A stretch of 52,017 nt of DNA from a virus. The translations under genes and the position numbers were made by a program. The notes under the pieces were generated by a model. It was not told where the DNA came from. It did not search any database and worked only from the letters and a program-made list of their open reading frames with translations. The stretch covers positions 1-52,017 of the IMG/VR virus record IMGVR_UViG_3300043429_001023; one strand, given 5' to 3'. This document shows, piece after piece, positions 21,138 to 50,108 of this stretch (position 1 is the stretch's first letter; each line of letters starts with the position of its first letter).

Positions 21138-21146
21138 ACAGTAAAT

Positions 21147-21231: not shown

Positions 21232-21275
21232 ATCAAATCAACCCTGGAAAGATCTTCTCCCCAACACTGATTTGA

Positions 21276-21350: not shown

Positions 21351-21423
21351 GTCTCAAAAATGTTCCCGGTCCTTAAGGCTGTGCACCGCCTCTTAGTTTT
21401 GCCAACCTCGTTTTGAAGTTGGT

Positions 21424-21562: not shown

Positions 21563-22204
21563 ATGCCGCACTTCTTAGATGTCAAAGGACCAAACCGAAC
21601 CTATAAAGTCATATGCGATCAATGTGGCACCGAATGTTTTAAAAGTTTAAAAAACTCAAACAAGGCTAAGAAATGTGATAAAGCGTTTTGCTCAATGAAA
21701 TGCACCTGGTTATCACGACGTTCGTTTACTATTAATCCATGTCCGGAGTGTGGTGTTGACGTAAAAGTGATGGCCCACGAAACCACAAATCGGTTTTGTT
21801 CGATTTCATGCGGAACAAGGTATAATAACAAACACAAGAAACATGGTACAACAAAAAGCAAGTTAGAGGTGTTTCTTGAAACCACTTTACTGATCAGATA
21901 CCCATCTTTGGAATTTCACTTCAATCGCAAAGACGCCATCGAATCGGAATTAGATATCTTCATTCCATCACTTAAGGTGGGAATAGAACTGAACGGCATC
22001 TTCCATTTCGAACCGATCTACGGAAAAGAAAAACTTGATAGTATTTTAAAGAACGATCAGAATAAGTTCCTGGAGTGCCAAAAACGCGGGATTTCTCTTT
22101 GCGTGATTGACACCTCTCATCAGAAACAATTCTCGGCGAAATCATCCGCCGTTTTCGTTGACATCATTTGCTCAATTATCGACAAAATGTTGGCGGAGAG
22201 CTGA
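21563..22204 (+). CDS. EDxHD/Vsr-like homing endonuclease with zinc fingers
   Basis: 213 residues from the ATG at 21563, chosen because GGAGG lies 5 nt upstream; the open frame runs further back but crosses hairpins. The N-terminal half has Cys pairs (CDQCGTEC, FCSMKC, CPECG, FCSISCG) for zinc. The nuclease half has ESELDIFIPSLKVGIELNG then IFHF, and KNDQNKFLECQKRGI, the E-D-x-H-D arrangement of Vsr-type enzymes. It is on the plus strand in a minus-strand tRNA array. Its last 14 nt overlap the 3' end of tRNA-Ser in antisense. Confidence 0.8.
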   Translation: MPHFLDVKGPNRTYKVICDQCGTECFKSLKNSNKAKKCDKAFCSMKCTWLSRRSFTINPCPECGVDVKVMAHETTNRFCSISCGTRYNNKHKKHGTTKSKLEVFLETTLLIRYPSLEFHFNRKDAIESELDIFIPSLKVGIELNGIFHFEPIYGKEKLDSILKNDQNKFLECQKRGISLCVIDTSHQKQFSAKSSAVFVDIICSIIDKMLAES

Positions 22205-22280
22205 GGTAACGATCCCCATCCGATCCCTCGGACCCTCAGTTTTCAAGACTGTGACACCCACCATGAGTGCGTAACCCTCC
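22191..22280 (-). tRNA. tRNA-Ser (UGA)
   Basis: 90 nt with GCCA end and class II variable arm (TCCG-AGGGAT-CGGA). Acceptor GGAGGGT/GCTCTCC pairs with two wobbles; anticodon loop CTTGAAA. T-stem TGGGG/CCTCA is sound, but the T-loop ATCGTTA departs from consensus. Confidence 0.85.
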
Positions 22281-22320
22281 GCTGCATCTCTCAAATTCCT
22301 TTCATTTCCTTTAAAACTTT

Positions 22321-22350
22321 TTGGCTCCTACCGTTTCCGGGAGGAGCCAA
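22321..22350. terminator. Hairpin upstream of tRNA-Ser
   Basis: Perfect 9-bp stem (22321-22329 with 22342-22350) with a 12-nt loop, T-rich on the minus-strand exit side. It probably ends the tRNA-Leu transcript. Confidence 0.7.
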
Positions 22351-22514
22351 ATGGTGACTTTCTCTGATCCGGATTTTATGTCGTGACGTTAAAGCTATTG
22401 CAATACGAATAGCAGACGCCACTTGATGTGGAGTTTTGCTTATTCTGTGACTGCTTGTTTGACATTGCTGATTCCGGTTTGTTCATGCTTTATTTAGTAC
22501 AACTTTATCGATTT

Positions 22515-22598
22515 TGGTACACTAGAGGGGACTTGAACCCCTACGCCTTTCGGCAGCAGCTTCTAAGACTGCCGTGGCTGCCATTTCACCACCAGTGC
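22515..22598 (-). tRNA. tRNA-Leu (UAG)
   Basis: 84 nt with CCA, class II. Acceptor GCACTGG/CTAGTGT (two wobbles), anticodon GCAGT-CTTAGAA-GCTGC, T-arm AGGGG-TTCAAGT-CCCCT. Confidence 0.9.
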
Positions 22599-29164: not shown

Positions 29165-29174
29165 GTTATTTATG
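29165..29174 (-). promoter_or_regulatory. Putative late promoter before zinc-motif gene
   Basis: CATAAATAAC on the minus strand, 21 nt before the ATG at 29144. Confidence 0.42.
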
Positions 29175-30900
29175 GTCGTGGTGTTTTATCGGCGAAGTTT
29201 TGTTTTGACCGGTGTAGTGTATTCTTGCCATACTCGTTTTTCTTGGCCCAGTTGGCATATGAACCTTTAAGCATGTCACGGGCCGAACCTTTTTTACCAA
29301 TTAAACCGGCAAACGCGTCAGCGCCTTTGGCAACTTTGTCGGCCAGACTGCCGTACCATGTGCCAAGTGGGTTATCATAGCCTTCTTCACCTGATAAATG
29401 CTTTTTCACGTTTGAGAATTTCTTCTCTCTGTCTGATTCGTATTTGTCCTTTTCGGCCGATCTTACGATTTCTTTGTCATAGTCTGAGCCATCGGATAGG
29501 TTATCCATATCGCCGCAGATCTTTCTTAACCTGGCAGCGTCTGGGCCGGCATAGATAACGGCATCTCCTCTTCGTTTTCTAGCAGAAACTTCTCTACGCA
29601 GGGCAGCTCTGGTGTATTGGTCGGTGGCAGACGCCATCTGTCTACCTTTACTGTCATTGCTGATTTCGCTTCCATATGAAACCACCCAAATGGCGGCGTT
29701 ATTGCCGCCGATGTCAGGTAGAAGTTTAAACACCTCTACCGGGTTCCTGGCCTTCTCGCCAAAGGTTGATAAGAAACCTGACGCCATAATCACTTTACCG
29801 GTTTTTTCAAGCAAAGTTAGCATAGCAGATGGGACGCTTTTATGGCTGCAAACGATGGTAGTTTTGAACCACTTTGGTTCGACTAGCCCGGTCATCGATG
29901 AATCTCCGCCAACCGAGTAGGCATGCATGTCGTCAAACTCAGACTGTACCATGTTGGCCAGAGCACCCTGGTTTACGGCGTCACTTAAACCTGGTAGATA
30001 TGTGTCAGCCAGATGAAGGTTCTTCATCTTGGTTCTAGCCAGACCAGCAAGTAAACCCATTGAAATACTTTGCTGGTGCATACTTTTCTTTTCATATGAG
30101 TCGGCCAGCATCTTGCTGATTATTGCAACGGCGGACAAAACGACAGTCTGGTATTCCTTGATATACTCGTTTTGGTCCATACCCTTGCCGGCATATTTTT
30201 GGTTGAATATTTCCAGAGCTACCTTTTCGGTTTGCTTAGTGATGTTTTCAACCCAGTTTTTGAAATAGCCGGTTTTGTTGGCTTGCGCCTCTGGTGCTCC
30301 TTTATGTAACTCTATAATACCCTTAGAGCCGGCCAAAATGCGTGATACCCCATGGTATTCCATTTGGTTATTCATCATTGAAGCAATATACGGTTTTGAT
30401 GACGGGGCCATCAAGTTGTTAATCACGTTCTGGTAGTCGGTGGTAATGTCTGCTGATTCAAACAGCATATTGATAGACGATTTCTCAACCGATTCTTTGA
30501 ACTGAGCAATAGCATCGCTTACTCGGTAGTCAAACTCTGGGTCAACCGACCACATCAGTCTAATAAGGAAGACATCACTGTCTGACGGTTTTCTCTTGGG
30601 GTCGGATAGCCAACCAGAGCTAGAGATGTCTACCAATCCCTGGTATTCCTCAAGCCTGGTTGATGAGTTGGCTGAGTTTCTAGCGTTAAACGACGCCTCT
30701 GCCACCACACCAAGTAGGCTGTCGGAGCCAACCCACATCAATTTTGACTGATCAATGACAACGCCACCGGACTCGGAAACCACGAACATTCCGTCTGACA
30801 CATATCCACGAATACCACGGTCAAACACGGCGTCTACCTCGGCACAAACTGATTGGTCCAGGTGGTCGTATTTTTCGCTCAAAAGCCATGAAAGTTTCAT
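29170..30900 (-). CDS. Unknown large protein, 576 residues
   Basis: Function not recognised. The N-terminal half is mixed alpha/beta (VVIDQSKLMWVGSDSLLGVV), the middle long and helical (EKVALEIFNQKYAG; AVAIISKMLADS). A segment from about residue 365 has strands TTIVCSHKSVPSAML and AIWVVSYGSEI that look like a Rossmann-type or nuclease-type core. The C-terminal 120 residues are very basic and low complexity. One base separates it from the 823-residue gene upstream. Its size and late-type context suggest a virion component. Confidence 0.82.
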   Translation of the reverse strand: MKLSWLLSEKYDHLDQSVCAEVDAVFDRGIRGYVSDGMFVVSESGGVVIDQSKLMWVGSDSLLGVVAEASFNARNSANSSTRLEEYQGLVDISSSGWLSDPKRKPSDSDVFLIRLMWSVDPEFDYRVSDAIAQFKESVEKSSINMLFESADITTDYQNVINNLMAPSSKPYIASMMNNQMEYHGVSRILAGSKGIIELHKGAPEAQANKTGYFKNWVENITKQTEKVALEIFNQKYAGKGMDQNEYIKEYQTVVLSAVAIISKMLADSYEKKSMHQQSISMGLLAGLARTKMKNLHLADTYLPGLSDAVNQGALANMVQSEFDDMHAYSVGGDSSMTGLVEPKWFKTTIVCSHKSVPSAMLTLLEKTGKVIMASGFLSTFGEKARNPVEVFKLLPDIGGNNAAIWVVSYGSEISNDSKGRQMASATDQYTRAALRREVSARKRRGDAVIYAGPDAARLRKICGDMDNLSDGSDYDKEIVRSAEKDKYESDREKKFSNVKKHLSGEEGYDNPLGTWYGSLADKVAKGADAFAGLIGKKGSARDMLKGSYANWAKKNEYGKNTLHRSKQNFADKTPRP

Positions 30901-30901: not shown

Positions 30902-33373
30902 TTAGAACCCCAGTTGGTTTAGTAATGCCAGCGCTTTGTTTTCACTGGGGCGTTGTTTCTTGCCACGGTTACTGTCGTTGGCGACCACAGCATGTGTTGC
31001 CCTGCCACCGGTAAACTCGTTTGTTTGGTCGTGCGTTCTAGCCAGCTTGAGCGAAGCGGTGACATTCTTGGCGTTCTCAAATCTCTCAGCATAAACGCCC
31101 GATCCCTTAATCAGGTCAACACCTTTTTGGCCGTAACCAACGGAGACAATGTTTCTGACCACCGACGTGTCGATACCGGTTTTACTTTTAGCCTCGGCCT
31201 CGTAACCCTTAATCGCGTTAACGATGTCGTTGATATACTCGTACTGTTCAACAAGGGCCGATAACCTGTCGGTACCTAGATTTGTTGCCGTCTCGACTAA
31301 ACAGGCCTCTCTTACCTGGTTCACTAAGTTAGCTGTTGATGTCTGCATATCGGAGGCGACTTTAACAAACGACTCGGCCCATGGTATGATTACGTCGTGG
31401 ATATATTTGCTGCGGGTGGCAACGTCTTCCGGCTTAGCGTTGGTTTTCTCCGGGGCTTTAGAATATCTATCGATGCCAACTGCATCGTTTAGTGTAGATA
31501 GCCTTTCGTACATTTCGACAACGGTATGAGTGACAGTCTTGTCATATGACGATGAAACTGTTGATTTACTCATCGGCACGTCGTGTACACCCTGATCAGG
31601 TTGGTTGGTCCCACCAATATCTCTACGCTGGTTGCGAATACTAACCATCCCGGCGTCGGCGAGGTGTATTTTAGTTTCAACCAGGCTGGCCGCTTCACTA
31701 AACCCAGATCGGTTCAAAACCGAAACAACGTTGTTCAGACCTCGCATGGCATCGCTGTAGCTGCTATTTGACGATGATAGATCTTCCAGCACTTTCAACA
31801 CGTTAGTTGAGGCTTTATCGCCCTTAGGCGACTCTGAGTATTTTAGTATTGAACCAACCAGCTTTGACTGTGTGTTTAACAGCATTGGGATATCTTCAAG
31901 GTATGGTTCAATCTTGCTGACTGCCCCAGCAATATCGCCGATCTTTCTGGCGTCGGTGTCGTTGATTTCGTTTTTGGTTTCCTCAGCAATATTCTTCAAC
32001 TCCTCCGACATTTTAGTAAGGGTGATATCTGGACCAAGAGCACCCATTGATGCTGAACCGTATTGCAATTTGTCTTTGTCAACCATCTTGTACCCGTTGA
32101 CGCTGGATACCGAGTTTACATGCTGGTCGGTGCTGGCCATGACAATAACGATGGCCGGGTTTAGTTTTGTAACGGCATCGGCCATAGCCTTAGAAACTTC
32201 ACTCCCCTGCTGTTCCGGCTTACGTGAAACCGAGCCGCCGATGACGTTTGTAAACACAGGAAGAGGCCCAGATAAATCAGCGTCTGGGAATTTCAACTTG
32301 ATAAGTTTTTGAGTTTGTTGGTTAGTGTTGACAAACGGATCGGAAACAATTGATAACACACTCATATCATGGATTTTATCAGAGCTTTCTGGGACGACAG
32401 CCGATAGCATAGCTATCGTTTCGTCGATTTGCTTGTTATTTGAGATAGTGCTATCGATTAACGATAACGACATATTTGACGTAACACCGGAGAATCCAGT
32501 TTTATTAGCCAGGAAGTCGTTATGGTGGTTGGCCACATGCACACGGATAAAATGCTGGGATTTTTTTAGGTATCCAATTACAGCGTTGTCCACCTCCGGG
32601 TTTTGGCCATCTAAAGCGGCTTGTAGCTTGTCGGCAAAAACAGAACGACCACCGGTAGGTAAGTCACAGATTGAAGACACAATCCGGTTTACGTCGTTAT
32701 CTGATTCTATAGCCTTGTATATGTCAGCTGGGTTTCTGGTGCCAGATTTGATAGACGCCTCGTGTAGTTTTAGTACAGTAGAGATTTTATACAAAGCGGT
32801 AATTGCTATTTCAACAGCTTTTTTCTGAATACCATCGGTGTCGTCTTTAACGAAGTACATGGCATTGCATCTTTTAGCCAAACCGGCCAGATCAGCAGCA
32901 ACTACCGACAGAATACGGCTGTTACCATCTGGTTGGGCACCAATGTCTATGTCTGCTTCAACATCGGTATATACCGGGATGTTTTTGAAGATAAGAACAT
33001 CACAATCGACTTTGTTGTTATCTTTTTGGGCCAATCTTTTTGGGCCGAGAAGAACCACTTTATAGTTATTGCTTAGACGGGCGGCAACCGAGATGTTAAA
33101 ATATGGGCTACTATCTGGACCGTTTTTGACTTTAAAGGTGGAGCCAACCACGTTGGCCACGGAGGCAAGCTCTGACTCAGTAATAGGGGTATCCGAGTAG
33201 GCAACAACTCTAAAGGGAATGTTTTTGTTCTTTTTGGCCCGTTCAAGCATTTCGGCAGCAATACTGCTGGATTCTGGGCCAACGTCTGCCAGATCATCTA
33301 CAGTTTTTTCCTTCGGGTCCTCAAAGGCTTCGCCAAACTGTTTAACACCAACGTAGTACAAAAGGCTTTTCAT
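30902..33373 (-). CDS. Unknown large protein, 823 residues
   Basis: Function not recognised. A largely helical protein with heptad-like stretches, many Asp, Ser and Val residues, no Cys-rich motif and no nucleotide-binding loop. The N-terminal 140 residues look alpha/beta (PFRVVAYSDTPITESELASV; YKVVLLGPKRL). The C-terminus is basic (GKKQRPSENKALALLNQLGF). It is expressed with the 576-residue gene (one base between) and preceded by a CTAAATATC late-type promoter 24 nt before the ATG. A structural or internal head role is likely by context. Confidence 0.82.
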   Translation of the reverse strand: MKSLLYYVGVKQFGEAFEDPKEKTVDDLADVGPESSSIAAEMLERAKKNKNIPFRVVAYSDTPITESELASVANVVGSTFKVKNGPDSSPYFNISVAARLSNNYKVVLLGPKRLAQKDNNKVDCDVLIFKNIPVYTDVEADIDIGAQPDGNSRILSVVAADLAGLAKRCNAMYFVKDDTDGIQKKAVEIAITALYKISTVLKLHEASIKSGTRNPADIYKAIESDNDVNRIVSSICDLPTGGRSVFADKLQAALDGQNPEVDNAVIGYLKKSQHFIRVHVANHHNDFLANKTGFSGVTSNMSLSLIDSTISNNKQIDETIAMLSAVVPESSDKIHDMSVLSIVSDPFVNTNQQTQKLIKLKFPDADLSGPLPVFTNVIGGSVSRKPEQQGSEVSKAMADAVTKLNPAIVIVMASTDQHVNSVSSVNGYKMVDKDKLQYGSASMGALGPDITLTKMSEELKNIAEETKNEINDTDARKIGDIAGAVSKIEPYLEDIPMLLNTQSKLVGSILKYSESPKGDKASTNVLKVLEDLSSSNSSYSDAMRGLNNVVSVLNRSGFSEAASLVETKIHLADAGMVSIRNQRRDIGGTNQPDQGVHDVPMSKSTVSSSYDKTVTHTVVEMYERLSTLNDAVGIDRYSKAPEKTNAKPEDVATRSKYIHDVIIPWAESFVKVASDMQTSTANLVNQVREACLVETATNLGTDRLSALVEQYEYINDIVNAIKGYEAEAKSKTGIDTSVVRNIVSVGYGQKGVDLIKGSGVYAERFENAKNVTASLKLARTHDQTNEFTGGRATHAVVANDSNRGKKQRPSENKALALLNQLGF

Positions 33374-34460: not shown

Positions 34461-35918
34461 TTAATTCACAAAACCATTAACCATATCGAAAGTAGTTTGT
34501 ATGATCCTAAACCCTTCCTCTTCATAGGTGTTGATTCTCTTGGATTTGTGCCGTTTACTATACTTCTTATCCGTGAATAAATCGATAATGCGTACCGGTT
34601 TGTCAGTGACCTTGCTTAGATGACGCCGTAATCCACGGCCGATTGACTGGATCATTTTAATATCGCCGGCAGGCTGCTCATAGAACATAATAGTATGCAG
34701 GTTTTTGATGCTTATACCTGTAGAATACTTCTGGTATGTGGCTATGAACGAAACCCCATCAGATTTTTCAAGAATTTCTTTGAATATTTCGTTGTCACCT
34801 GCACTGGTATTTTCACCATGTATAAAGGTATAACCGGTATTTTGCTGTAATACTCGACCGGCAGAAACGTTCTGAACCAAAATCAACGAGTTACGTTTGA
34901 AAGATTCCTCACGTTTAATAATGGCTACTGCCTGTGACATATACAGCGGGTCACCAGACACAGCAGCACGTTCTAGGTTGTGATCTGGGTACTCTTCTAG
35001 AGACTTGGTTTCACAATCAACAATAATCACAGTACACCCAGGCAAGAACCCCTCCGCCTGCAGGTCCTTAGTGTCTTTTCGGTAGATGATTGGGCCGTTA
35101 TTACCAAACACACAGTGTAGCGTATATTTGTCTTTCGGCATTGAACCGGTAAACCCGTACACGGCTACCGGGCTAACATCGGCCATTATGGCATCAACAG
35201 TATCACTACCAGACCCGTGACATTCATCGTTGTAAATCACCGTGAGGTTGGCCGCAAAGTGGGCCTTCATATTGTCATTTAAAGCCAGTGAAGCCCTAGT
35301 AGTGATCAGTATCGGCATCATCGGCATCCAACTTTTAGCATCAGCATACCAAATACCAACTTTGCGCCTGTCAATACCATATACCCTGGTCAGATCGTCG
35401 CAGAATTGCTCAACCAGGTCCTGTGTTGGCACCAAGACCACGTGGTACTTCCAAAGAGGTTTATCACGAAGAAGGTGGGTAATAATATACCCTATAGTTG
35501 CCGACTTGCCAGAGGCGGTTGGAAGTTTAATGACACCTCTCAGCTTTTTCATAGCCGCAATGGCCGATTCGCGTTGATAATATAGTGGGGTAATGCCTGG
35601 TAGAATGTTATCGTCGAAAACGCATCCTGGGTTGCTACCACCTTTATACAGTATAATGGCTTTGTGGTCCATTGTGGCAGTGACATTGAACAGGTGGTGG
35701 ACCGCCGTGTACACGGCCTCCAACAGCCCGTACCTGAAATCTCCGTGTTTAGAGATTACTGACCGCATACCGTCAGACAGACCCAATACAAACGATTTGT
35801 TCATGAATGCCGATGGGTCACGCCACGAAAGGCTTTCGGTGAGTTTGGTTAGCTGGGCATCAGTAAGGCCGACAATTTTGAACCGGTTCTTGCCGATATC
35901 CACAATATTGACCGACAT
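34461..35918 (-). CDS. uvsW: UvsW-like superfamily 2 helicase
   Basis: 485 residues (T4 UvsW 503). Walker A LPTASGKSA near residue 132, the DEAD-box variant YNDECHG near residue 230, motif III GFTGS near residue 257, and motif VI QSIGRGLRR near residue 430. The N-terminal 110 residues correspond to the T4 UvsW DNA-binding domain. UvsW unwinds branched and R-loop structures and links origin- to recombination-dependent replication. Its ATG overlaps the stop of the UvsY-like gene upstream by one base. Confidence 0.9.
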   Translation of the reverse strand: MSVNIVDIGKNRFKIVGLTDAQLTKLTESLSWRDPSAFMNKSFVLGLSDGMRSVISKHGDFRYGLLEAVYTAVHHLFNVTATMDHKAIILYKGGSNPGCVFDDNILPGITPLYYQRESAIAAMKKLRGVIKLPTASGKSATIGYIITHLLRDKPLWKYHVVLVPTQDLVEQFCDDLTRVYGIDRRKVGIWYADAKSWMPMMPILITTRASLALNDNMKAHFAANLTVIYNDECHGSGSDTVDAIMADVSPVAVYGFTGSMPKDKYTLHCVFGNNGPIIYRKDTKDLQAEGFLPGCTVIIVDCETKSLEEYPDHNLERAAVSGDPLYMSQAVAIIKREESFKRNSLILVQNVSAGRVLQQNTGYTFIHGENTSAGDNEIFKEILEKSDGVSFIATYQKYSTGISIKNLHTIMFYEQPAGDIKMIQSIGRGLRRHLSKVTDKPVRIIDLFTDKKYSKRHKSKRINTYEEEGFRIIQTTFDMVNGFVN

Positions 35919-36388
35919 TAGCTTTCTTCCTTTTCTAACATACTGCGTATGCTGTTAAACACGAATCGTTGCGATTTATGTAGGTCAACAACCTCTTCGA
36001 TGTACGTGATATACATTTTCCGCATTTCAACATCATGCTCGGCTAACTGGACATCCATGTCGTGGTCAATAGCAAATTTGGTTTCCTTCTCCATTGATGA
36101 AGGAATGCGAGAGGTACCACGAATACGAAGTTCAGTCTGATTACGGATAGTACGGGCTTTAGCCATTGCGGCTTTAAGTCCCATCTGCTCAGTAATCAGA
36201 AGTGAAATGTAGAAGTGGTGACGTACCCCACTAGCGAACAGCTTCTCCAGGAAGTTTTCACGACTCAGTGTAACGTCCTTCAGTACCTGTTCACCAACTT
36301 TCCTGCGAAGTACCAGATATCTCATGGTGATAGCTGCGAACGGGTCACCATCTGTTGTAGGGTCAGCTGATGTGAATTGTTCGGTCAT
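35918..36388 (-). CDS. UvsY-like recombination mediator (tentative)
   Basis: 156 residues, helical, with a pattern comparable to T4 UvsY (137 residues): a basic central helix, then KETKFAIDHDMDVQLAEHDV, and a C-terminal helix ending SQRFVFNSIRSMLEKEES like UvsY's final 'F-x-I-k-h-I-q-d-M'. In T4, uvsY lies close to uvsW as here. UvsY loads UvsX on gp32-coated single-stranded DNA. Identity is weak, so the name is inferred mainly from context. First gene of the leftward unit from the divergent control region. Confidence 0.55.
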   Translation of the reverse strand: MTEQFTSADPTTDGDPFAAITMRYLVLRRKVGEQVLKDVTLSRENFLEKLFASGVRHHFYISLLITEQMGLKAAMAKARTIRNQTELRIRGTSRIPSSMEKETKFAIDHDMDVQLAEHDVEMRKMYITYIEEVVDLHKSQRFVFNSIRSMLEKEES

Positions 36389-38300: not shown

Positions 38301-39020
38301 ATGAACACAACGCCGATTTCGATAATGGTTTTTCTTAGACAATATAAACAGTACTTCGACCGACCAAAAATACCAACTGAGTATTTCAGTGACAAATACA
38401 CATTCAAAGCCACCGAAACCAGGTTTGCTGAGGCTGTTCCTTTGCACATTACCACCGAGACAACTGAGGAAGGTGACTTTTTCATCGATCCGGTAAGCGG
38501 TAAACGTCGCAAAGTGAACAAAAATAAGTCAATATACCTTGACAACAGCGTTCTTCAACGTCTGATGGAACTATACCATAACACAAGAGTGTTGGTTGAG
38601 GTGACCATTTCAGACAAGGATGGCAACATAGTTTATACTGGTATATATAACCAGTATACCATGTCTGATGAGTTGGCTACTGCGTTCTACCTCATCTCGA
38701 AAAAGGTCGGTACGTCCAGTTGCTTCCGTGGGTATAGTTCAAATGATGATATGGTGAGCGAGGCTTTCGCTTTCTTAGCCAAATCAGCCTGGCGATATAA
38801 AGTCGGTAACGAAGCCAAGTCAGCCAACCCATTCGGATACTTCACCAAGCTGGCGCACCAAACCTTCAGAACATACCTTGCTAAAGAGAATAAGAAAACT
38901 GCCGGTCTAGAAAATTACCGTAATGAGAAATACCCGGAGTTGATCGATAACCAGTTAGACGGGTGTTCCATCAAACCGGCAGCCGCCATGCAATACTCGA
39001 ATGACAGCAACGAAGATTGA
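38301..39020 (+). CDS. 55: gp55-like late sigma factor
   Basis: 239 residues (T4 gp55 185). The region TAFYLISKKVGTSSCFRGYS, then DDMVSEAFAFLAKSAWRY and NPFGYFTKLAHQTFRTYLAKE, matches the sigma region 2-like part of T4 gp55, which binds core RNA polymerase and opens late promoters. The first 110 residues are an extra N-terminal part not in T4. CGGAG lies 6 nt before the ATG. A TAAATA-type element occurs upstream of several genes in the window as a likely target. Confidence 0.85.
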   Translation: MNTTPISIMVFLRQYKQYFDRPKIPTEYFSDKYTFKATETRFAEAVPLHITTETTEEGDFFIDPVSGKRRKVNKNKSIYLDNSVLQRLMELYHNTRVLVEVTISDKDGNIVYTGIYNQYTMSDELATAFYLISKKVGTSSCFRGYSSNDDMVSEAFAFLAKSAWRYKVGNEAKSANPFGYFTKLAHQTFRTYLAKENKKTAGLENYRNEKYPELIDNQLDGCSIKPAAAMQYSNDSNED

Positions 39021-39067: not shown

Positions 39068-39535
39068 ATGCCAGTCATTGTCAGAGAAGGCGACCTTATC
39101 GAATATATTGGTCGCGGGTATATGATCTGCCACCAGTGTAACCTGGTTTCCCGTAGTGTTGCCGGCCTAGCCGCATACATCTATAAGAACTTTCCAAAGT
39201 CAAACGTCCGTGGTGTTCAGGAGTACGGACAGGAACGCTTCGGCACCAACGACATTGTTAAAGTTGGTGGTGGGGCGGTAGCTAACTTATACTCCCAAAT
39301 TTACCCTGGGCCTACCGATAGCAACGGGTACACACATCGGTACAACAAATTTTGGAGTTGTCTTGAAGCTTTGCCGGCCCAGTGCGAAAAACTCAAAATC
39401 ACTAAAATCGCCTTCCCAAAAAATATTGGGTGTGGCCTGGCCGGTGGCGATTGGCATGACTACAGTAAAATGATAAACGACTTCGCTGAGGCTAATCCGC
39501 ATCTTACTGTGGTCATTGTGGATCGTGGGTACTGA
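39068..39535 (+). CDS. Macro-domain protein (ADP-ribose binding)
   Basis: 155 residues from the ATG at 39068, with CAGGAG 8 nt upstream; an upstream in-frame ATG at 39017 lacks a site. VREGDLIEYIGRGYMICHQC is the first strand and loop of macro domains, followed by GVQEYG, VANLYSQ and IAFPKNIGCGLAGGDW, the 'FP-x-I-x-c-G-x-a-G-g-x-w' ligand loop. Macro domains bind or hydrolyse ADP-ribose, ADP-ribose-1''-phosphate or O-acetyl-ADP-ribose. It lies between the sigma factor and the nuclease fusion. A role in reversing ADP-ribosylation or NAD-based defence is inferred. Confidence 0.87.
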   Translation: MPVIVREGDLIEYIGRGYMICHQCNLVSRSVAGLAAYIYKNFPKSNVRGVQEYGQERFGTNDIVKVGGGAVANLYSQIYPGPTDSNGYTHRYNKFWSCLEALPAQCEKLKITKIAFPKNIGCGLAGGDWHDYSKMINDFAEANPHLTVVIVDRGY

Positions 39536-39537: not shown

Positions 39538-42444
39538 ATGCCTAAACCAGTTGCCGTCGTCGCCAGCGACCTTCATTTTGGCGTTTACAAATCGGCCGAT
39601 TATTTTGCTAATATCCAGCGGACTTGGGCTACTTGGGTACGTGACCAAATGGTTGCTCTTGGGTGTACCAAGTTGATTCTGGGCGGAGACACATTTGAGG
39701 ACAACAATAGTGTCCACCTGAAAACTATGTCTCTAGCCAAAGATATCTTCGACGACACCTGGGGCAACTTTGAGGTTGAGGTGTTGGCAGGCAACCACGA
39801 TGTACACGGTAAAGGTAGTAACGACGTACACTCAACAGTAATGCTAGACGACGGTATGCGCGTCAAGGTGTATAACGAGCCGACCGTAATAGATGTCGGA
39901 AACCTCAAAGTCTTGATGCTACCATGGGATGGCAAATTATCAGACGATAAAGTTAGGGCATATGCTAGTACCGGCATTGATGTATGTGTATGTCACGCTG
40001 CCGTCCGTGGTTTTGAAGTTCGTAAAGGTGTGCCGTGTGATGGTGCCGTAACGGTTGATCCGTTCATGACCAGCTTCAAACGCACTCTGTCCGGCCATTT
40101 TCATATGCCATCAGACCGTGGCACCTTCAGCTACATCGGATCTCCATACCAGATTACCATGAATGACATTGGTGATAATAAGCGTCTTTTGGTCCTTATG
40201 GATGACTGTTCGGTTGTCGAGATTATCAACAACATCAGCCCAAAATTTGTTGTGGTTAAGGCTAGCGAAGCTATCATGAACCTACCGTCTTTGATGGGTA
40301 ATCACGTTAGAGTGATCAACGACCTAGATCGTGAATCATACCAAAAAGTACATGACGTAATGTCAAAAACCGCAGTAACCATCGCCGATAAAAAAGACAC
40401 GGTTTCTGTTGGCCAAATGGCAATTTCTTTGGATATTGACACATCATCAAAGAGGCGTGCTGCCGAGATCATAGCAGATTACGTGAAATCAGCTAAAATA
40501 CCGTCCACTATTGACCCGGTGGTTTTAATCGACAAATATATCAGACCTTTGTCAAAAGCCTCCACAAAGTATGAACCCGGCCGTATCAACATGGAGGAAA
40601 TATCGATTACGAATTTCTTGTCTGTTGGTTCGGAAGAGGTGAAGGTAAGCTACGGCAACTCCGGCATTACAATGATTTTCGGAAAGAACCTGGATAGCGA
40701 ACAGGTCAGATCAAACGGAAGTGGTAAAACGGCTATTTTCGTTGACGCCCCAATATTTCTATTAACTGGATCGGCCATGAAAGAGGTGGCCAAGAAGGAA
40801 TCACTTTCACACGATGGCAACCAGGGAACCACTGTGGTTCAAGGTGTGTTCTCGAAGAACGGCGTCAGGTACAAGATTAGAAGAACACTGTCTCCTAACT
40901 CGGTTGAGCTCAGTACAGAGGTTGGTGGAAAATGGGTGGCGTTTGAAATGGGTGTAGCCCAGACAAACGCCGAAATCACCAATATCGTCGGGTGGTCAAA
41001 AGAGGTCTTACAGTCGTTGATTATCATCAACATCAAACGGATGAAGGCGTTCACTAACTCAAGCTCTGATACCAAACGCGGTATGTGGGAAGCGGTATTA
41101 CGCCTTGACGAGTATACCGCCATGAAGGACGCCATTAAAGTCCTAATGAACGACCGAGATAATGGTGTTATCAATAGATTGGCCGCTTTGAAAACAAAAC
41201 TTGATGGGGTACGAAAGTACATTGCCAACCAGAAAACCACCATCAATGATCTCGTAGTGGCCTCTACTAAGGCTGTTCAACCGCTAATCGACTCTCTTGA
41301 GCATAAGCATAAAGAACTTGAATTGTTAGAGATGTCCTTTGACCAGTCCGCATATGAGGCTCTGGTAATCAAACGGATGAACAATACCAAATTAATAGAA
41401 AAGGCGACTGCCCAGTTACACCATTTCCGAAATCTGGCCACCAACGCCGACGTTGAGATTAAAAGCGCCAATAACCTATTACAAGCTGGTAAAAACGATA
41501 TGGCCAAATTCCTGGCCAACACATCTTCGGCTATTTGTGGGCACTGCCTATCGCCTGTAGACAAATCGCATGTCGATAGTGTTAAAGCCGGCTTTGAATC
41601 GAAAATTGCTGACCTTGAGGTAAACGTGACGGTTGTGGTTAAAAAGAAAGATGCCCCAGCCAAGGCCATCTCTATTATTGAGACGCAAATCGCGGCAATC
41701 AACGCAGACGAACGGGCTTTGTCTGCCGGCCAAGACGAAATGGCTACCATCAAACGTAGTATAGATGCTGTGAAACGCGATATCGCTACCACCGAGGCCA
41801 ATATTGAACAGATGAAGCGTAATAATAACTATACTGGAATTATCAAGAAGACCACTGAGGCCCTTGATAAAATGGTGGCCGACGAATTTGCTATGACCAA
41901 CGAACAAGCGGAGCTTAACACTGATAAGATGTATTACGAGGTGTGTAACGATATTCTATCGGATACCGGCGTCCGGAATTATATCATCGGTAAAACCTTG
42001 CCGGCAGTACAAGATATGATCAACCGATATCTACACCACATGGGAGCTGCCACCACCACAGGCGGCATCTCGGCCAAGTTCGAAAGTATGGGCGATATCC
42101 AGGTCACAAAGGTTGGTAAACCGACGTTCGAGATCAATAACATGAGTGAAGGTGAACGCCTCACCTTTGATTGGGCTGTGATGCTGGCCTTCATACAACT
42201 ATCGATAGCCTCTGGAACGGTACAAACCAACTTCATCGTGCTGGATGAGGCCTTGGATACCAGCGTTGACTCGGTGGGCCTTTCAAATTTCATCAAGATC
42301 ATGCGGGAAATCCTCGACCAAAACTCAATCAACGCCTTTATCACATCACATAATGAAAACGTGTTTGCCAACAGCGAACTTGGTTTCGTGAGACGAGCTG
42401 TGGTAACAAAACACAAAAACGCGTCCACGTTAGAACAGTACTAG
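39538..42444 (+). CDS. 47-46: Single-chain Mre11-Rad50 fusion (gp47 joined to gp46)
   Basis: 968 residues in one frame. Residues 1 to about 330 are the Mre11/SbcD/gp47 nuclease with all five phosphoesterase motifs: SDLHFG, LGGDTFED, AGNHDVHG, VCHAAV and SGHFHMP. From about residue 350 comes a complete Rad50/SbcC/gp46 ATPase: Walker A RSNGSGKTA near 392-400, coiled coils around a zinc hook CGHC at 667-670, signature MSEGERLTF and Walker B FIVLDEALD. T4 encodes these as two proteins of 339 and 560 residues. The complex resects DNA ends for recombination-dependent replication. No ribosome site is seen at the join. Confidence 0.94.
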   Translation: MPKPVAVVASDLHFGVYKSADYFANIQRTWATWVRDQMVALGCTKLILGGDTFEDNNSVHLKTMSLAKDIFDDTWGNFEVEVLAGNHDVHGKGSNDVHSTVMLDDGMRVKVYNEPTVIDVGNLKVLMLPWDGKLSDDKVRAYASTGIDVCVCHAAVRGFEVRKGVPCDGAVTVDPFMTSFKRTLSGHFHMPSDRGTFSYIGSPYQITMNDIGDNKRLLVLMDDCSVVEIINNISPKFVVVKASEAIMNLPSLMGNHVRVINDLDRESYQKVHDVMSKTAVTIADKKDTVSVGQMAISLDIDTSSKRRAAEIIADYVKSAKIPSTIDPVVLIDKYIRPLSKASTKYEPGRINMEEISITNFLSVGSEEVKVSYGNSGITMIFGKNLDSEQVRSNGSGKTAIFVDAPIFLLTGSAMKEVAKKESLSHDGNQGTTVVQGVFSKNGVRYKIRRTLSPNSVELSTEVGGKWVAFEMGVAQTNAEITNIVGWSKEVLQSLIIINIKRMKAFTNSSSDTKRGMWEAVLRLDEYTAMKDAIKVLMNDRDNGVINRLAALKTKLDGVRKYIANQKTTINDLVVASTKAVQPLIDSLEHKHKELELLEMSFDQSAYEALVIKRMNNTKLIEKATAQLHHFRNLATNADVEIKSANNLLQAGKNDMAKFLANTSSAICGHCLSPVDKSHVDSVKAGFESKIADLEVNVTVVVKKKDAPAKAISIIETQIAAINADERALSAGQDEMATIKRSIDAVKRDIATTEANIEQMKRNNNYTGIIKKTTEALDKMVADEFAMTNEQAELNTDKMYYEVCNDILSDTGVRNYIIGKTLPAVQDMINRYLHHMGAATTTGGISAKFESMGDIQVTKVGKPTFEINNMSEGERLTFDWAVMLAFIQLSIASGTVQTNFIVLDEALDTSVDSVGLSNFIKIMREILDQNSINAFITSHNENVFANSELGFVRRAVVTKHKNASTLEQY

Positions 42445-42480: not shown

Positions 42481-43662
42481 ATGAACATCAGTGATCACGC
42501 CGGTGCGATGCACAGGGCGCATACTACCAGACCTGAAGTAAGAGCGTACCGTGGCGTAAACTTCGTATCCGACTACACCGGCTGCGGCGTGTGGAGAATG
42601 ATTTGGCCTTCTTTGGTCTTGTCTACAACATACCCTAACTGGAAAGAAGGCCACCCGGCTTTTCACATCGAAAACCTGTCAACCGTGGTGTATGACCAAA
42701 CCACATTCTTCAATGGTGTCAGAGTGGTGCGGGTTCAGCGCCCTTCTACCGATGCTCAATGCCACTACCTGAGAGAGGTCTTACTGCCTTTATCAAAACG
42801 TTTGGGTTTCACTGTTACGGTGGACTACGATGACTGGCTGCTTGGTATTCCGCTGTTCAACCAGGCACACAAAGCCTATGACGCCAAAACCCTGAATAAT
42901 ATTGCCTCAGTGATTAGGAACATCGAGTTCATCACCGTTTCCACCTCATACATGAAATTCATGATGAATAAGAAACTTGGTACTCCACTCGACAAAATCC
43001 TTGTCCTCCCCAACCGGATGCCAAAATTCCTATTTGACCGCCACGAGGTCAAACACATTGAGAAACGCGGCAGCAGGAAAATGAAGGTGCTGTGGACCGG
43101 TTCGTCTTCGCACGTCAACGTGATGGACCCGTCTGGTGCCGATGATGTTGTTCTGCTGAGAAAACTGATTGAAAAATATAACACCTCGGTAGATTGGCAT
43201 ATTATTGGTTTGAGCAAATCAGTGGCTGTTGGTAAACTAGGGTTCCCCGATTTTATCAATTTCCATGACTGGGTAGATGTCCATACCTATATTAGCCTGA
43301 TTCGCAATGTGTCACCAGACCTGGCTATCATTCCACTTCTTGACTGTGATTTCAATAAGGCCAAGTCTAATATCAAGCTTCTTGAGTTTGGTGCTATGGG
43401 TATACCATGTACCCTACAGGAGCTTGAACCGTATAAGTTCTCAACGTCGAAGTTCACCAATTTCGAATCGCTTGTCGAGCAGTTCGAGACCCTGTCTAAG
43501 AATCCTGAGTACCGGTCATATATTATCAGCGAGAATAAGGCGTTCATCAATGACAACCACTTCTGGCTTGAAGACCCAGTATCTCTTGAACAGTACAAGA
43601 GATTCTACTCTGGTGATATTGCTAGGATGTGTAAAGAAAAATTGAACGAGACCATCGCTTAA
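42481..43662 (+). CDS. GT-B type glycosyltransferase (family 4-like)
   Basis: 393 residues. The N-terminal domain has VDYDDWLLGIP near residue 117. The C-terminal Rossmann domain has KVLWTGSSSH near residue 201, VDWHIIGLS, and the donor-binding motif KAKSNIKLLEFGAMGIP near residue 297, typical of GT4-type enzymes using an activated sugar. It lies between the recombination nuclease and DNA polymerase genes, where T4-type phages can carry DNA-glucosylating enzymes, but it is not recognisably T4 alpha- or beta-glucosyltransferase. Substrate unknown: DNA base, lipopolysaccharide or protein. Confidence 0.85.
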   Translation: MNISDHAGAMHRAHTTRPEVRAYRGVNFVSDYTGCGVWRMIWPSLVLSTTYPNWKEGHPAFHIENLSTVVYDQTTFFNGVRVVRVQRPSTDAQCHYLREVLLPLSKRLGFTVTVDYDDWLLGIPLFNQAHKAYDAKTLNNIASVIRNIEFITVSTSYMKFMMNKKLGTPLDKILVLPNRMPKFLFDRHEVKHIEKRGSRKMKVLWTGSSSHVNVMDPSGADDVVLLRKLIEKYNTSVDWHIIGLSKSVAVGKLGFPDFINFHDWVDVHTYISLIRNVSPDLAIIPLLDCDFNKAKSNIKLLEFGAMGIPCTLQELEPYKFSTSKFTNFESLVEQFETLSKNPEYRSYIISENKAFINDNHFWLEDPVSLEQYKRFYSGDIARMCKEKLNETIA

Positions 43663-43720: not shown

Positions 43721-46567
43721 ATGGCCGAAGTAACCTATCTTGATGCCTGGTTTGACCATAGGGCCGGCAATATACACCTTTGGACACAGGATTTAAACAC
43801 CCGCGAAGACGGGTATCAGGTAATTCCTTACTCACCATGTAACTATGTGGTATCTGACTCACCGAAAGCGAAGTTTGTTGATATTCGTGGCCGAAAAATG
43901 GAAAAGCGTGAGTACGCCACAAACAAAGAGGCTGTATCTCATTGCTCCCAAAATGTGCACCGCACCGCTGGGTACTTCTCCCCGACTCAGCAGTGGATGA
44001 TGTCGCATGAAGGCCTGCTGAACTACCAAGACCACAAAAATTTCGGGTCACCACAGTTCAGGTCGTGTTTCATAGATATTGAGACATACTGCAATAACCA
44101 AGGTGGGTTTTCTAAACCAGAAAACCCAGAGGGGTTTATCGGCTCGATCGGGTGTTGGAACAACCAAGATCGCAAATACACCATTTTCGCCCTAAACGCC
44201 GGAATGACTTCGGAGTGGAAGTCGGTGATGATGTCCCCAACCAAGGAACTCATCATTTATAAATCTGAAGCGGTGATGCTGCAGGATTTCATCAGATACT
44301 TCAGAAAATGCAAATTCAACTCTATAGTCGGGTTTAACTCGCGTCGGTTCGATATCACATATATTATCAACCGGATCAAAATCATTTTTGGTGAGGATCA
44401 CCGGTACGTCAGCGCCCTCAGCCCGATCAGAAAGGTGTCGTGGCAGGAGTGGAACGAAACCTACCGCATACCTGGCGTGGTTCAGCATGATTACCAGGAA
44501 ATGTACCTGAAATTCACGATGGGTGATGTGGAAGAAACCAACCTAGCCCACATCTGTATGATCGAGTTTGGTGAAACCAAACATGAAAGCGTCTACCCGA
44601 TGCATTGTATGGACAGGAATGGTGTTGTTACCGACTATCCAAAGTGGATGGCTATGATCAAATACCAGATACAGGATGTGTACCTGGTTATCAAACTGGA
44701 CGAGGTTAAGAGATTTATACGCTTAGGATCGTCAATCTACACACGTGGTATGGCGGAACCAGAGGCGATTTACAGCACCATACCATACGTCGACGGGGCC
44801 ATGGCCTGTGCAATTCTCAAAAAGGGAATGATTCCTCCGTCATATAAGAAATGGGACGATAACGAAGACCAGCCCGAGCACAAGAAATACGTTGGTGCGT
44901 TGACTCTGGATCCTAAACCAGGCCGAAAAGGCTGGGCGTTAATGTATGACGCCAAATCAATGTATCCTTCGGCTATGCGTCAGGTTAATATTAGCCCGGA
45001 AACCAAAGTGTTGGCTATCTCTGGTGACCTGGAAACCAAACGCCGTATTGCCGAGGTAACAAGACCGTATTTCGATGTGTCAAAGACGAACCTTGCCGAA
45101 CCGATAAAAATCAGGATGGTGAACCGTGACGGAACCGAAACCGAGCATGACAGCACAGTTGGTAATCTTAGAGAGTTTGCCAGGGTTAAGAAACTCACCA
45201 TTTCTGGCAGTGGCACATACTACACCTCCGAGAAGAAAGGGGTTATACCAGAAATTCTTGAGGGGTGGTTCAACGAGCGTATCCAATACCAAAATACCCA
45301 TACTGCGTTGGTGGCCAGGCAAAACGCCGGAGAGCAAGGGCTAGCCGACGAGATTGAATGGTACGAAATCTTAAGCAACGCCATAAAAATTCTTCTTAAC
45401 TCGGTATACGGCGCGGTCGGTTCCAAGCACAGCGGTTACTACGATATTGACAATGCCATCTCAACCACGATGACTGCCCAAAACATTCTGCGTGCGGCTA
45501 TGTGGTTTGCTGATGACTGGGTTAGAGACAAACTAAACATGGTAAAGTCTACTACAACCCAATATGAAATTACCAACACCAAATATCCGGTAAACATCAA
45601 CTACGGCGATACTGACTCCATTGCCGTTGATATGGCCAAAGTAGTAGCAAAATACGGTACGGTAGACCATCAGGTTATTCTGCCGAGACTTGAGGCGGAC
45701 GGTGCCGAGCTTGGTAAACACCTAAGCGCCGGGTTCAAACCATGGGCCAAAGACCATCTAAACTCTGACGCTACCGGAATCATCAAATTCGCTCTTGAAA
45801 TCATATCGGACACCACGATTATGATCAAGGCTAAGAAATACGTGATGCGCGTCATTAAGGACGACAAAGGCCGAGTATTCATCGGAAAGAACAAATTGAA
45901 GGTAAAGGGCCTTGAAATCGTTACTGCTACCACCCCGTATAAGGTGAAACCGGTACTGAAAGACATGTTAATTGACATTGTAAACGGTGACTATAAGGTG
46001 TGCGTTGATAACATCAAACTGGCTCGTGAGAAGTTTAAGTCAATGTCATACCAAGAGATGGCTAAACCGTCTGGCATCCGTGGGCTAAAGAAGTGGGATA
46101 AAACTACCAATCTTCCAAACGATATAAATGCTCCGGTAGAAGTTGGTAACATACGATGGGAAAACCGCTGCCCATACCATGTCAAAGCTGCCTTAATTTA
46201 CAACTACCGCACAAGAAACATGCAGTCTACATACAAACAGATTGTTGACGGCAACAAGATTAAATTGATATACCTGAAACCAAACTCCCACAAGTTTAAT
46301 GTCATGGCGTTTGAGTCTGAGTTCCCAACCGAACTTGGGTACCAGGTTGACGTAGATATGCAGCTTGAGAAGGTATTGATGTCAATGCCACGCAGATTCT
46401 TCTCGGTTCTAGGATGGCCCTTCCCGCAGATGAGGGTGGAAGACCTAATGGGTATATTTGAAAGTTTCGGTGTTGAAAGTGCTGCAGTATACGAACCAGT
46501 TGACGAACCGGATGATGAGGATTATGATCATCAGGATACCGGCGAAGAATGCGCCTCGTACATCTAA
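43721..46567 (+). CDS. 43: Family B DNA polymerase (gp43-like)
   Basis: 948 residues (T4 gp43 898). Proofreading exonuclease motifs: Exo I CFIDIET (Asp119, Glu121), Exo II FNSRRFDITYI and Exo III YQIQD. Polymerase motifs: A DAKSMYPSAM (Asp410), B KILLNSVYGAVG and C YGDTDSI (Asp630, Asp632), then KAKKYVM. Both active sites look intact. The C-terminus ends in an acidic tail (DEPDDEDYDH). AGGAG precedes the ATG. It replicates the phage genome with the helicase and UvsX genes that follow. Confidence 0.97.
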   Translation: MAEVTYLDAWFDHRAGNIHLWTQDLNTREDGYQVIPYSPCNYVVSDSPKAKFVDIRGRKMEKREYATNKEAVSHCSQNVHRTAGYFSPTQQWMMSHEGLLNYQDHKNFGSPQFRSCFIDIETYCNNQGGFSKPENPEGFIGSIGCWNNQDRKYTIFALNAGMTSEWKSVMMSPTKELIIYKSEAVMLQDFIRYFRKCKFNSIVGFNSRRFDITYIINRIKIIFGEDHRYVSALSPIRKVSWQEWNETYRIPGVVQHDYQEMYLKFTMGDVEETNLAHICMIEFGETKHESVYPMHCMDRNGVVTDYPKWMAMIKYQIQDVYLVIKLDEVKRFIRLGSSIYTRGMAEPEAIYSTIPYVDGAMACAILKKGMIPPSYKKWDDNEDQPEHKKYVGALTLDPKPGRKGWALMYDAKSMYPSAMRQVNISPETKVLAISGDLETKRRIAEVTRPYFDVSKTNLAEPIKIRMVNRDGTETEHDSTVGNLREFARVKKLTISGSGTYYTSEKKGVIPEILEGWFNERIQYQNTHTALVARQNAGEQGLADEIEWYEILSNAIKILLNSVYGAVGSKHSGYYDIDNAISTTMTAQNILRAAMWFADDWVRDKLNMVKSTTTQYEITNTKYPVNINYGDTDSIAVDMAKVVAKYGTVDHQVILPRLEADGAELGKHLSAGFKPWAKDHLNSDATGIIKFALEIISDTTIMIKAKKYVMRVIKDDKGRVFIGKNKLKVKGLEIVTATTPYKVKPVLKDMLIDIVNGDYKVCVDNIKLAREKFKSMSYQEMAKPSGIRGLKKWDKTTNLPNDINAPVEVGNIRWENRCPYHVKAALIYNYRTRNMQSTYKQIVDGNKIKLIYLKPNSHKFNVMAFESEFPTELGYQVDVDMQLEKVLMSMPRRFFSVLGWPFPQMRVEDLMGIFESFGVESAAVYEPVDEPDDEDYDHQDTGEECASYI

Positions 46568-46585: not shown

Positions 46586-47851
46586 ATGGCCAAGAAACCG
46601 ACGAAAGACAAAGAAGACGACAAGAATGATGGTATCCTCAAATACGAGGTAGACAACTCGGCCGCGTCAAAAGAACAAGGTGAGTTGGACCGTGTTAGAG
46701 AGTTTAACCTCCTAGGTGATATCGGATCACAACTTCTTATGGCTGCCCGCGAGGTTTGCGGGTTCTCGGACGTCATGTCATCTTCCGCCACCGGCAATAT
46801 CGAAGACTATGAGTATTGTGACACCGGAATTCCGGCCCTGAACATGCTGATTTCGGGCAGCTTCAAAAAAGGCCTTCCTCCGCGTATCTGTGGCCTCTCC
46901 GGTATCTCACAGTCCGGTAAGACCTACATCGGCCTCCGTGCCGCCGCCAGGGCTCAGAAAAAAGGCGTCTTGATCATCTTCTTCGATTCCGAAGGTTCGG
47001 TTACCCGCCAAACTATGGAAAAACACGGCATTGACGTCAGTAAAGTCATTTTCATTCCGGTTCACCGGGTGAATGCGTTTGGTGCTGCCGCAACCTTGAT
47101 GCTTGATAAACTGGAAGTTGCCAACTTTGTCCAATGTCCAATCACCAAGAAACTTCGACGCAAGCCTCGCGGTCAATATCAGCGTGTGATGTTCATTGTT
47201 GACTCACTCGGTATGATGTCCAACAAATCGGACGCCGCCTCCATTGTCAACGACACCAACACTGTCGGTCAGAAGGCTAAAGATATACGCGCTGTGTTCC
47301 GTGAACTATCAAACCGGATGGCCATCCATGGCATCTGTATGCTGTTCACTAACCACGTGTCAGAGTCGATGCCAAAACCCGGTCAGAGCTCGGCTCCGCA
47401 GATTATTTCAGGTGGTGGTAAAGGTCCTGAGTACTCGGCCACTGTGTTAATTCTCTTCAAATCACGTGCCCTTCGTGAAGACCAAGAAAAATCTACCAGT
47501 GATATCGTCGGCACCCAGATCACCGCCAAGTGTCTGAAGAACCGCATGGTGCCACCTCTAACCGAGATCGTCATTGACCTCAACTTTGAAGAGGGTGTTG
47601 ATGAATACTCTGGTTTGTTTGAACTTGGCGTTGAAGCCGGTCTGATTAAACAAAACGGGTCATGGTATTCATTCAACGATACCAAGGTACTTGGCAAGGC
47701 CGGCATTATGGCCCTTGGTGCTGACAAAATCTTCACATCGGAGTTCATGGACAAACTTGATGTTTGGGTCCAAAAAGAGTTTTGCTATCGTAGTGATGCA
47801 ATATCTAACGAAGTTGAGGTTGAAGACGTAGTTATCGAATCTGACAAGTAG
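46586..47851 (+). CDS. uvsX: UvsX-like RecA-family recombinase
   Basis: 421 residues (T4 UvsX 391). Walker A GISQSGKTYIG near residue 108-117, a catalytic-glutamate/Walker-type segment IIFFDSEGS near residue 131, Walker B MFIVDSLGM near residue 205, and an L2-like IISGGGKGPEYSATV near residue 272. It forms filaments on single-stranded DNA and drives strand exchange for recombination-dependent replication. The N-terminus has an extra Lys/Asp-rich stretch. Its last 67 nt are overlapped antisense by the frameshifted HNH gene. Confidence 0.93.
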   Translation: MAKKPTKDKEDDKNDGILKYEVDNSAASKEQGELDRVREFNLLGDIGSQLLMAAREVCGFSDVMSSSATGNIEDYEYCDTGIPALNMLISGSFKKGLPPRICGLSGISQSGKTYIGLRAAARAQKKGVLIIFFDSEGSVTRQTMEKHGIDVSKVIFIPVHRVNAFGAAATLMLDKLEVANFVQCPITKKLRRKPRGQYQRVMFIVDSLGMMSNKSDAASIVNDTNTVGQKAKDIRAVFRELSNRMAIHGICMLFTNHVSESMPKPGQSSAPQIISGGGKGPEYSATVLILFKSRALREDQEKSTSDIVGTQITAKCLKNRMVPPLTEIVIDLNFEEGVDEYSGLFELGVEAGLIKQNGSWYSFNDTKVLGKAGIMALGADKIFTSEFMDKLDVWVQKEFCYRSDAISNEVEVEDVVIESDK

Positions 47852-48677: not shown

Positions 48678-50108
48678 ATGTCAGTGAAGGGCTCTACAGT
48701 TGAGGATGCCGTAGTAGACATCGCCGACGGAAACATGGAAACAGCCATCCTATCCAGTCTGTTTAAGGATATGGAGTATGTGGCAATGTCTGCCGGAAGA
48801 ATCACTGAAGAGTCCTTCTCTCGCAAATCTGCCAGGGATTTGTTCAAGATAGTAAACAAGTTCAAGACCAAGTATCCTGGTACCAGTATTACCCCAGAGT
48901 TGTTGCTGAAGACGCCACACCTTGCTAGTGGAGATATTCGTTCTCTGCTTGAAGAGGTGGTTGCCTTCCCACCGGTACCAACACAATATATGCTGGATCA
49001 GACCAGCAGTTTTGTTCGCAGACATGCCATGCGAGATGCATTCATTACCTCGTATGATATGATTGAAGACCCGGACCGGTACCCCGAGATCGAGGCCAAG
49101 TTCAAGAAAGCTATGAGCATGTCGTCATTCGAGGATTTGGGTCTTGACTACTTCGAGGAGCAGTCCGTTCGTAAGCGTATGGAACGCCGAAAGACCTCGG
49201 CTATTGGCAACGTGCGTACGATGTTCACAGGAATCGATGACGCCCTGTTTGAGACAAACCGATCGGTAGCTGGTGGCACGCTGAACGTATTTGCCGGCGT
49301 GTCAAACATTGGTAAGTCGATTTGGCTTGGACAGTTAGCTAAGAATATCGCCGACCAGGGTAAGGTGGTGGTAATTTACTCTTTGGAGATGAACGAAGAC
49401 TCATATGCCAGCCGACTAGACGCCAACTACGCCAAGGTTAAGACAGATTCTATTTTGGCCCACGAGCAACATGTTACCGAGAGTGTTATCAACGCCGGTG
49501 TTGCTAGTGGCGGTAAGATCATTATCAAACAGGTACCAACCGGTACCGCTTCGTCATCCGACTTGATGACATATCTAAACTCATTAAAACTACGCGGTAT
49601 CGTCCCTGACGCGGTGTGTATCGACTACCTAAACCTGATGCGCCCCGCCCAAAAGGTATCATCATCAATCAGCATTTACGAACGAGTAAAGTATATCGCC
49701 GAAGAACTTCGCGCCGTCGCCATTTACTTCGATATCCCATTCTTCTCAGCCACTCAGCTTAACCGCACAGGTTACGGTTCCACCCCTTCAGCTCAGCAGA
49801 TTTCAGAATCAATGGGCCTAATGCACACCGTTGACCTTCTTATTGGCATTTACCAGAACAACGACGATAAGGCCGCAGGGGTAATGAGGTCAATTATCAT
49901 TAAAAACCGGTATGGGCCACGTGATCTGGCTATTGATTTTGATATCAATTATGACTACCTATCCATTACCAATAAAGTCGGGGAAACGTCTCAACGGGCT
50001 AACTCAGAAGATCTCAAACATGCCAAGCAGCTTATGGGCGAAATCCCGATGGATGATAAAGACGCCCCGGCTAGTGATGATATGGTTTCAAGTTTCCTTG
50101 GCGGTTGA
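48678..50108 (+). CDS. 41: Replicative DnaB-type helicase (gp41-like)
   Basis: 476 residues (T4 gp41 475). The N-terminal helical domain (to about 170) is followed by a RecA-type core: Walker A GVSNIGKS near residue 210, VVIYSLEMNEDSYASR (DnaB motif H1a/H2 region), Walker B AVCIDYLNLM near residue 315, and FSATQLNRTG near residue 357, the DnaB 'QLnR' motif. It forms the hexameric helicase unwinding DNA ahead of the polymerase. AAGGA precedes the ATG. Confidence 0.93.
   Translation: MSVKGSTVEDAVVDIADGNMETAILSSLFKDMEYVAMSAGRITEESFSRKSARDLFKIVNKFKTKYPGTSITPELLLKTPHLASGDIRSLLEEVVAFPPVPTQYMLDQTSSFVRRHAMRDAFITSYDMIEDPDRYPEIEAKFKKAMSMSSFEDLGLDYFEEQSVRKRMERRKTSAIGNVRTMFTGIDDALFETNRSVAGGTLNVFAGVSNIGKSIWLGQLAKNIADQGKVVVIYSLEMNEDSYASRLDANYAKVKTDSILAHEQHVTESVINAGVASGGKIIIKQVPTGTASSSDLMTYLNSLKLRGIVPDAVCIDYLNLMRPAQKVSSSISIYERVKYIAEELRAVAIYFDIPFFSATQLNRTGYGSTPSAQQISESMGLMHTVDLLIGIYQNNDDKAAGVMRSIIIKNRYGPRDLAIDFDINYDYLSITNKVGETSQRANSEDLKHAKQLMGEIPMDDKDAPASDDMVSSFLGG

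Follow-up and report, generated by a model that had tools for sequence, protein, structure and literature searches.

A single gene encoding fused homologues of Mre11 and Rad50 (gp47-gp46, or SbcD-SbcC) is present at positions 39538..42444, on the plus strand, of the viral sequence analysed here, a window of 52,017 nucleotides comprising IMG/VR record IMGVR_UViG_3300043429_001023; the assignment is based on the single frame, domain matches, motifs and a structural model. The favoured interpretation, at a probability of roughly 0.8, is that the gene arose by natural in-frame fusion of T4-type genes 47 and 46, and that its product is one 968-residue chain that would dimerise and conduct ATP-gated end resection. 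The open reading frame extends without interruption from the ATG at 39538 to the stop codon at 42444, specifying 968 amino acids, in agreement with an initial annotation made from the sequence alone. Comparison with PHROGs revealed an SbcD-like match (phrog_100, E 3.9e-52) to residues 7-327 and an SbcC-like match (phrog_77, E 2.9e-70) to residues 218-966, with Pfam AAA_23 matching residues 355-552 (E 2.4e-11). The Mre11/gp47-type nuclease domain, including the capping region and a C-terminal helix-loop-helix, was accordingly placed at residues 1-342 (39538..40563, plus strand) on the basis of phrog_100, the catalytic residues and the helices of the model, and the Rad50/gp46-type ABC ATPase, with its coiled coil and hook, at residues 349-968 (40582..42441, plus strand) on the basis of phrog_77, AAA_23, invariant motifs and the model. 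The joining of Mre11 and Rad50 in one frame of a T4-type virus is thus confirmed as real.

The catalytic apparatus of both subunits, claimed previously from motifs, was borne out by alignment. All eight catalytic residues of Pyrococcus furiosus Mre11 are retained, with D8, H10, D49 and N84 corresponding to D11, H13, D51 and N86 in the fused protein, and H85, H173, H206 and H208 to H87, H153, H187 and H189; these positions are invariant or nearly so across 29 Mre11-type relatives, and the metallophosphoesterase motifs D-x-H, GD, GNHD, H and GHxH were all identified. The Rad50 part comprises a Walker A motif (G394-T398), signature (S870-E873), Walker B (D903-E904), D-loop (D911) and H-switch (H938), together with a predicted CGHC zinc hook at residues 667-670 (41536..41547, plus strand), located by motif and alignment. 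Residues C667/C670, S870, D903-E904, D911 and H938 are invariant across the 35 Rad50-type relatives aligned. The P-loop region additionally carries an insertion of about nine residues, GKNLDSEQVRSNGSGKT, at residues 383-392 (window 40684-40713, plus strand); a similar form occurs in many metagenomic relatives, Bacillus phage BSP14 and XacN1, and is missing from T4-type gp46.

An AlphaFold2 model of the fused chain was generated from a 62-row alignment in which the two halves were anchored by three read-through bridge rows. The model has a mean pLDDT of 85 and a pTM of 0.54, and the latter value indicates that the relative placement of the domains is not reliable. Helices predicted at residues 308-318 and 327-342 close the Mre11 part, in the position of the Rad50-binding helix-loop-helix, while arms predicted at residues 524-661 and 676-806 on either side of the CGHC hook form a coiled coil that is short and T4-like. 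Foldseek searches returned several other fused viral proteins, matched from end to end, with the Rad50 part matching Rad50/SbcC/SMC heads.

The initial annotation had positioned the join near residues 330-350, with no internal ribosome site visible. The analysis located it at residues 343-351: the C-termini of gp47 proteins from relatives align near residue 345, and their gp46 proteins start near residues 350-352. Since the last Mre11 helix in the AlphaFold2 model ends at residue 342 and the first Rad50 strand starts at 349, the linker is predicted to comprise approximately six residues (343-348; 40564..40581, plus strand). Alignment with relatives identifies M352 (40591..40593, plus strand), which has no Shine-Dalgarno sequence upstream, as the residue at which the ancestral gp46 began. 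The occurrence of an ATG at exactly this position could feasibly permit internal initiation, yielding a free Rad50 subunit alongside the full-length chain and hence unequal stoichiometry. However, the 20 bases upstream of M352 pair with the anti-Shine-Dalgarno sequence at only -1.7 kcal/mol, weaker than the median for random sequence (-2.4 kcal/mol), and nearly all checked gene starts of the same phage pair at -3.3 to -7.0 kcal/mol. Translational coupling at M352 would, moreover, require a nearby stop codon and there is none in frame, such that internal initiation appears quite improbable. Cleavage of the linker after translation, to release two normal subunits, is regarded as very improbable indeed; a short linker may be accessible, and the phage encodes a head maturation protease (phrog_207), but the substrates of this protease in T4 are head proteins. 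A fixed 1:1 stoichiometry follows if the product is a single chain, as preferred here; the change in ATP gating suggested in the initial annotation would be a further, hypothetical consequence.

In Thermotoga maritima, the end of Mre11 and the start of Rad50 are separated by an estimated distance of about 28 Å, which a single chain preserving the native arrangement would span with 9-12 linker residues (PMC3175470), compared with which the approximately six residues between predicted elements in the window protein constitute a shorter linker. The modelled linker is tight and would be compatible with both cis and trans docking. A variant interpretation, rated as rather unlikely, is that an independent fusion in a deep T4-like lineage produced a linker too short for the arrangement of complexes built from separate chains, such that the helix-loop-helix would bind the coiled coil of the partner chain in a domain swap, with altered ATP gating.

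The fidelity of the assembly at the junction was examined by comparison with a second contig, IMGVR_UViG_3300047476_001526, which covers the window from position 34201 to its end and then continues for a further 1687 bases, indicating that it is a separate assembly, albeit one that may derive from the same sample or study. Across the 17,817 bases that the two sequences share, identity is 99.978% (4 substitutions, 0 gaps), and the fused frame contains no difference. A sequencing error hiding a stop or start near 40530-40600, which the initial annotation had raised as a concern, was not seen in this comparison. A TGA codon at 40572-40574 in frame +2 nonetheless sits directly after an AAA run at 40567-40569, and one added base in or near this run would place the TGA in frame, dividing the gene in two; homology alone therefore leaves room for a one-base assembly error. 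Such an error is exemplified by Listeria phage LMTA-57 (KJ591605), which was the best structural match in BFVD. Its 1009-residue "fusion" hinges on a single A missing at the gp47 stop codon, where an A5 run is shortened, as revealed by comparison with Listeria phage 20422-1, in which two genes occupy this region, and most of approximately 50 near relatives are likewise annotated with two genes. LMTA-57 was rejected as a true precedent on this basis; the protein annotated as "recombination exonuclease" is probably a sequencing error that now resides within structure databases. The possibility that the window genes are similarly separate, one base having been lost at the junction, is considered unlikely. 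The two contigs are identical at the frame, with no gaps over 17.8 kb, and when the viral collection was scanned for the junction sequence, with 0-3 bases allowed at the AAA run, only the second contig was returned. A separate gp46 starting at M352 would also lack a Shine-Dalgarno sequence, unlike nearly all checked starts, and whereas LMTA-57 reads through approximately 90 bases that include GGAGG, the window displays no sign of an intergenic remnant.

The natural fusion favoured here was then set against the organisation of related loci, 160 of which were retrieved in two scans of the viral collection built on two-sequence alignments. Both domains were identified in 144 of 172 loci, the one-frame state being confined to loci of the window's own virus. 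None of the 130 metagenomic loci that have both genes in the same orientation is fused, consistent with the statement in the initial annotation that T4 and most organisms encode the subunits separately. The two genes overlap or abut in 124 of these loci (88 overlap by four bases, 29 by one, and a few abut), and are separated by inserted sequence in the remaining 6. An overlapping gene pair is an obvious substrate for fusion, for which a single indel suffices. Since all sampled relatives are split, the fused state is derived here and, on sequence comparison, is local to the window's lineage among the related loci. Single-protein scans with the polymerase and UvsX found only the second contig, a search of the genome contig collection revealed no relatives, and a plasmid search gave only partial matches. 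Candidate XG4, initially a one-piece match, was rejected because a stop codon divides its two halves. Both halves of the window protein occupy long isolated branches in phylogenetic trees, and their exact placement is unsure.

The fusion is not a novel architecture, since Mre11/Rad50 fusions were described in 2011, when Yoshida, Claverie and Ogata reported Mimivirus R555 and twelve further sequences (PMC3175470). That set spans Mimivirus, bacteria, plasmids, eukaryotes and Bacillus phage 0305phi8-36; its distribution is sporadic, and the authors proposed viruses as the source, with operon genes having fused repeatedly in viruses (PMC3175470). The window protein has the arrangement by which those fusions were defined, a single frame whose N-terminal region resembles Mre11 and whose C-terminal region resembles Rad50, and shares with them the domain order and a short linker (PMC3175470). 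By its published description, however, R555 comprises 1351 residues, its coiled coil is long and two of its catalytic residues are altered, whereas the window protein retains all catalytic residues and has a short, T4-like coiled coil.

The search of phages for a similar architecture, as proposed in the initial annotation, revealed precedents in cultured phages, including XacN1 and the Tenacibaculum phages. ORF305 of Xanthomonas phage XacN1 (BBA65453.1; 3300 bases, 1099 residues), annotated as "recombination endonuclease subunit", resembles the window protein in being one chain, with Mre11 preceding Rad50, adjoined by a late sigma factor. The BLASTP alignment between the two crosses the junction at 22% identity (E 1e-20), leaving only a small gap, the linkers being of nearly equal length, and the P-loop insertion is present in both; XacN1 differs in being a jumbo phage and in having a longer coiled coil. 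The genes are split in jumbo-phage relatives of XacN1 (for example Xanthomonas phage XbC2 and 121Q-like phages). The window protein and XacN1 were apart in a concatenated tree, but their union was not rejected (AU p 0.175), and therefore one shared fusion or two separate fusions are both compatible with the data. Stenotrophomonas phage RAS14 (OP752703) has an annotated 897-residue frame running from mid-Mre11 through Rad50, matched in two pieces; it is related to XacN1 and likewise fused, with a possible frameshift, and was not counted as a complete fusion because the start of Mre11 is broken or unannotated. Tenacibaculum phages pT24/PTm1/PTm5 and Chryseobacterium phages MA9V-1/2 encode a fused metallophosphoesterase-ATPase of approximately 1310 residues (phrog_35725) which, like the window protein, is deposited as one gene with an N-terminal Metallophos domain and shows a full-length structural match. 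BLASTP detected no significant similarity between the window protein and the Tenacibaculum phage fusion; belonging to a different lineage, the Tenacibaculum/Chryseobacterium fusion most likely arose separately.

Among systems with separate subunits, T4-type gp47/gp46 of phage VR7 and of cyanophages share domain families, gene order and catalytic motifs with the window protein, and the cyanophage homologues likewise have gp55 upstream. They differ in being encoded by two genes, which a further small gene often separates, in having approximately 16-26% identity to the window protein and in having no P-loop insertion. Escherichia coli SbcCD and archaeal/eukaryotic Mre11-Rad50 have Rad50/SbcC heads that are alike by profile and fold, but consist of separate chains with much longer SbcC/Rad50 coiled coils.

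The genetic context is that of T4-type replication. Upstream of the fused gene are a gp55-like late sigma factor (38301..39020, plus strand; phrog_234, E 1.4e-14) and, between the two, a Macro-domain protein (about 39068-39535, plus strand; Pfam Macro, E 2e-5, phrog_335) with a possible ADP-ribose-related function. A glycosyltransferase (42481-43662; phrog_7162, E 3.6e-22) separates the fused gene from a gp43-like family-B DNA polymerase (43721..46567; phrog_262, E 2.5e-136), which is followed by a UvsX-like recombinase (46586..47851; phrog_97, E 2e-54) and a gp41/DnaB-like replicative helicase (48678..50108; phrog_19, E 3.9e-67), all on the plus strand. Encoded on the minus strand are a UvsW-like helicase, assigned at the family level as a DNA helicase (34461..35918; phrog_16, E 5.5e-45), and a weakly matching UvsY-like recombination mediator (35918..36388; phrog_231, E 8.4e-4). 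Homologues of portal, prohead protease (phrog_207) and major head proteins are also present in the window. Since gp47-gp46 similarly follow gp55 in cyanophages, Ochrobactrum phage OC and Rhizobium phage AF3, the fused gene occupies the place of the split pair in a T4-type recombination-dependent replication module. Megablast returned no match to the window and the polymerase has approximately 27% identity to database sequences; with database neighbours this distant, the virus represents a deep branch.

In T4, gp46/gp47 resect DNA ends for recombination-dependent replication. Within these families, the nuclease site lies in Mre11, which forms a dimer; the Rad50 heads come together on ATP, and the coiled coils are linked through the hook. 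Given neighbours that form a recombination-dependent replication module of the T4 type, ATP-gated DNA-end resection is the likely role of the fused protein. The fusion would have arisen when the adjacent genes 47 and 46 lost their short overlap or the stop that divided them. Two fused chains would then dimerise via their Mre11 domains, ATP-sandwiched Rad50 heads and zinc hooks to form the equivalent of M2R2. In this assembly, the Rad50 heads would control, by binding and hydrolysing ATP, whether DNA ends can reach the active site of Mre11. Resection of the phage DNA ends would then provide 3' single strands for recombination-dependent replication driven by UvsX and UvsY. Translation as a single chain, the dimeric form, the biochemical activity and the role in the phage are what we infer for this protein, with the resection role drawn by analogy with T4.

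The architecture, then, is already known, and the window protein adds another example as opposed to a new enzyme type; nothing established is overturned. It does support the repeated origin of such fusions from adjacent overlapping gene pairs, all sampled relatives here being split. A compact single chain in which no catalytic residue is missing and the coiled coil is short would also be a convenient construct for studies of ATP gating of Mre11, and is suited to asking whether a fixed 1:1 stoichiometry is tolerated.

Elsewhere in the window, two long adjoining minus-strand frames (29170-30900, 576 residues; 30902-33373, 823 residues) had no PHROG or Pfam match, and twelve tRNA genes are distributed across 12 kb (10342-22598, minus strand). 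A PurZ-like protein is encoded at 8523-9764 on the minus strand (phrog_1211; NCBIfam amino_Aden_PurZ, E 7.5e-43, 147 bits against a cut-off of 300), adjoined by a gene for an adenylate-kinase-like protein (7924-8523, minus strand), in a T4-like phage that also has a family-B polymerase. The pair could be a sign of 2-aminoadenine metabolism or of a modified genome.
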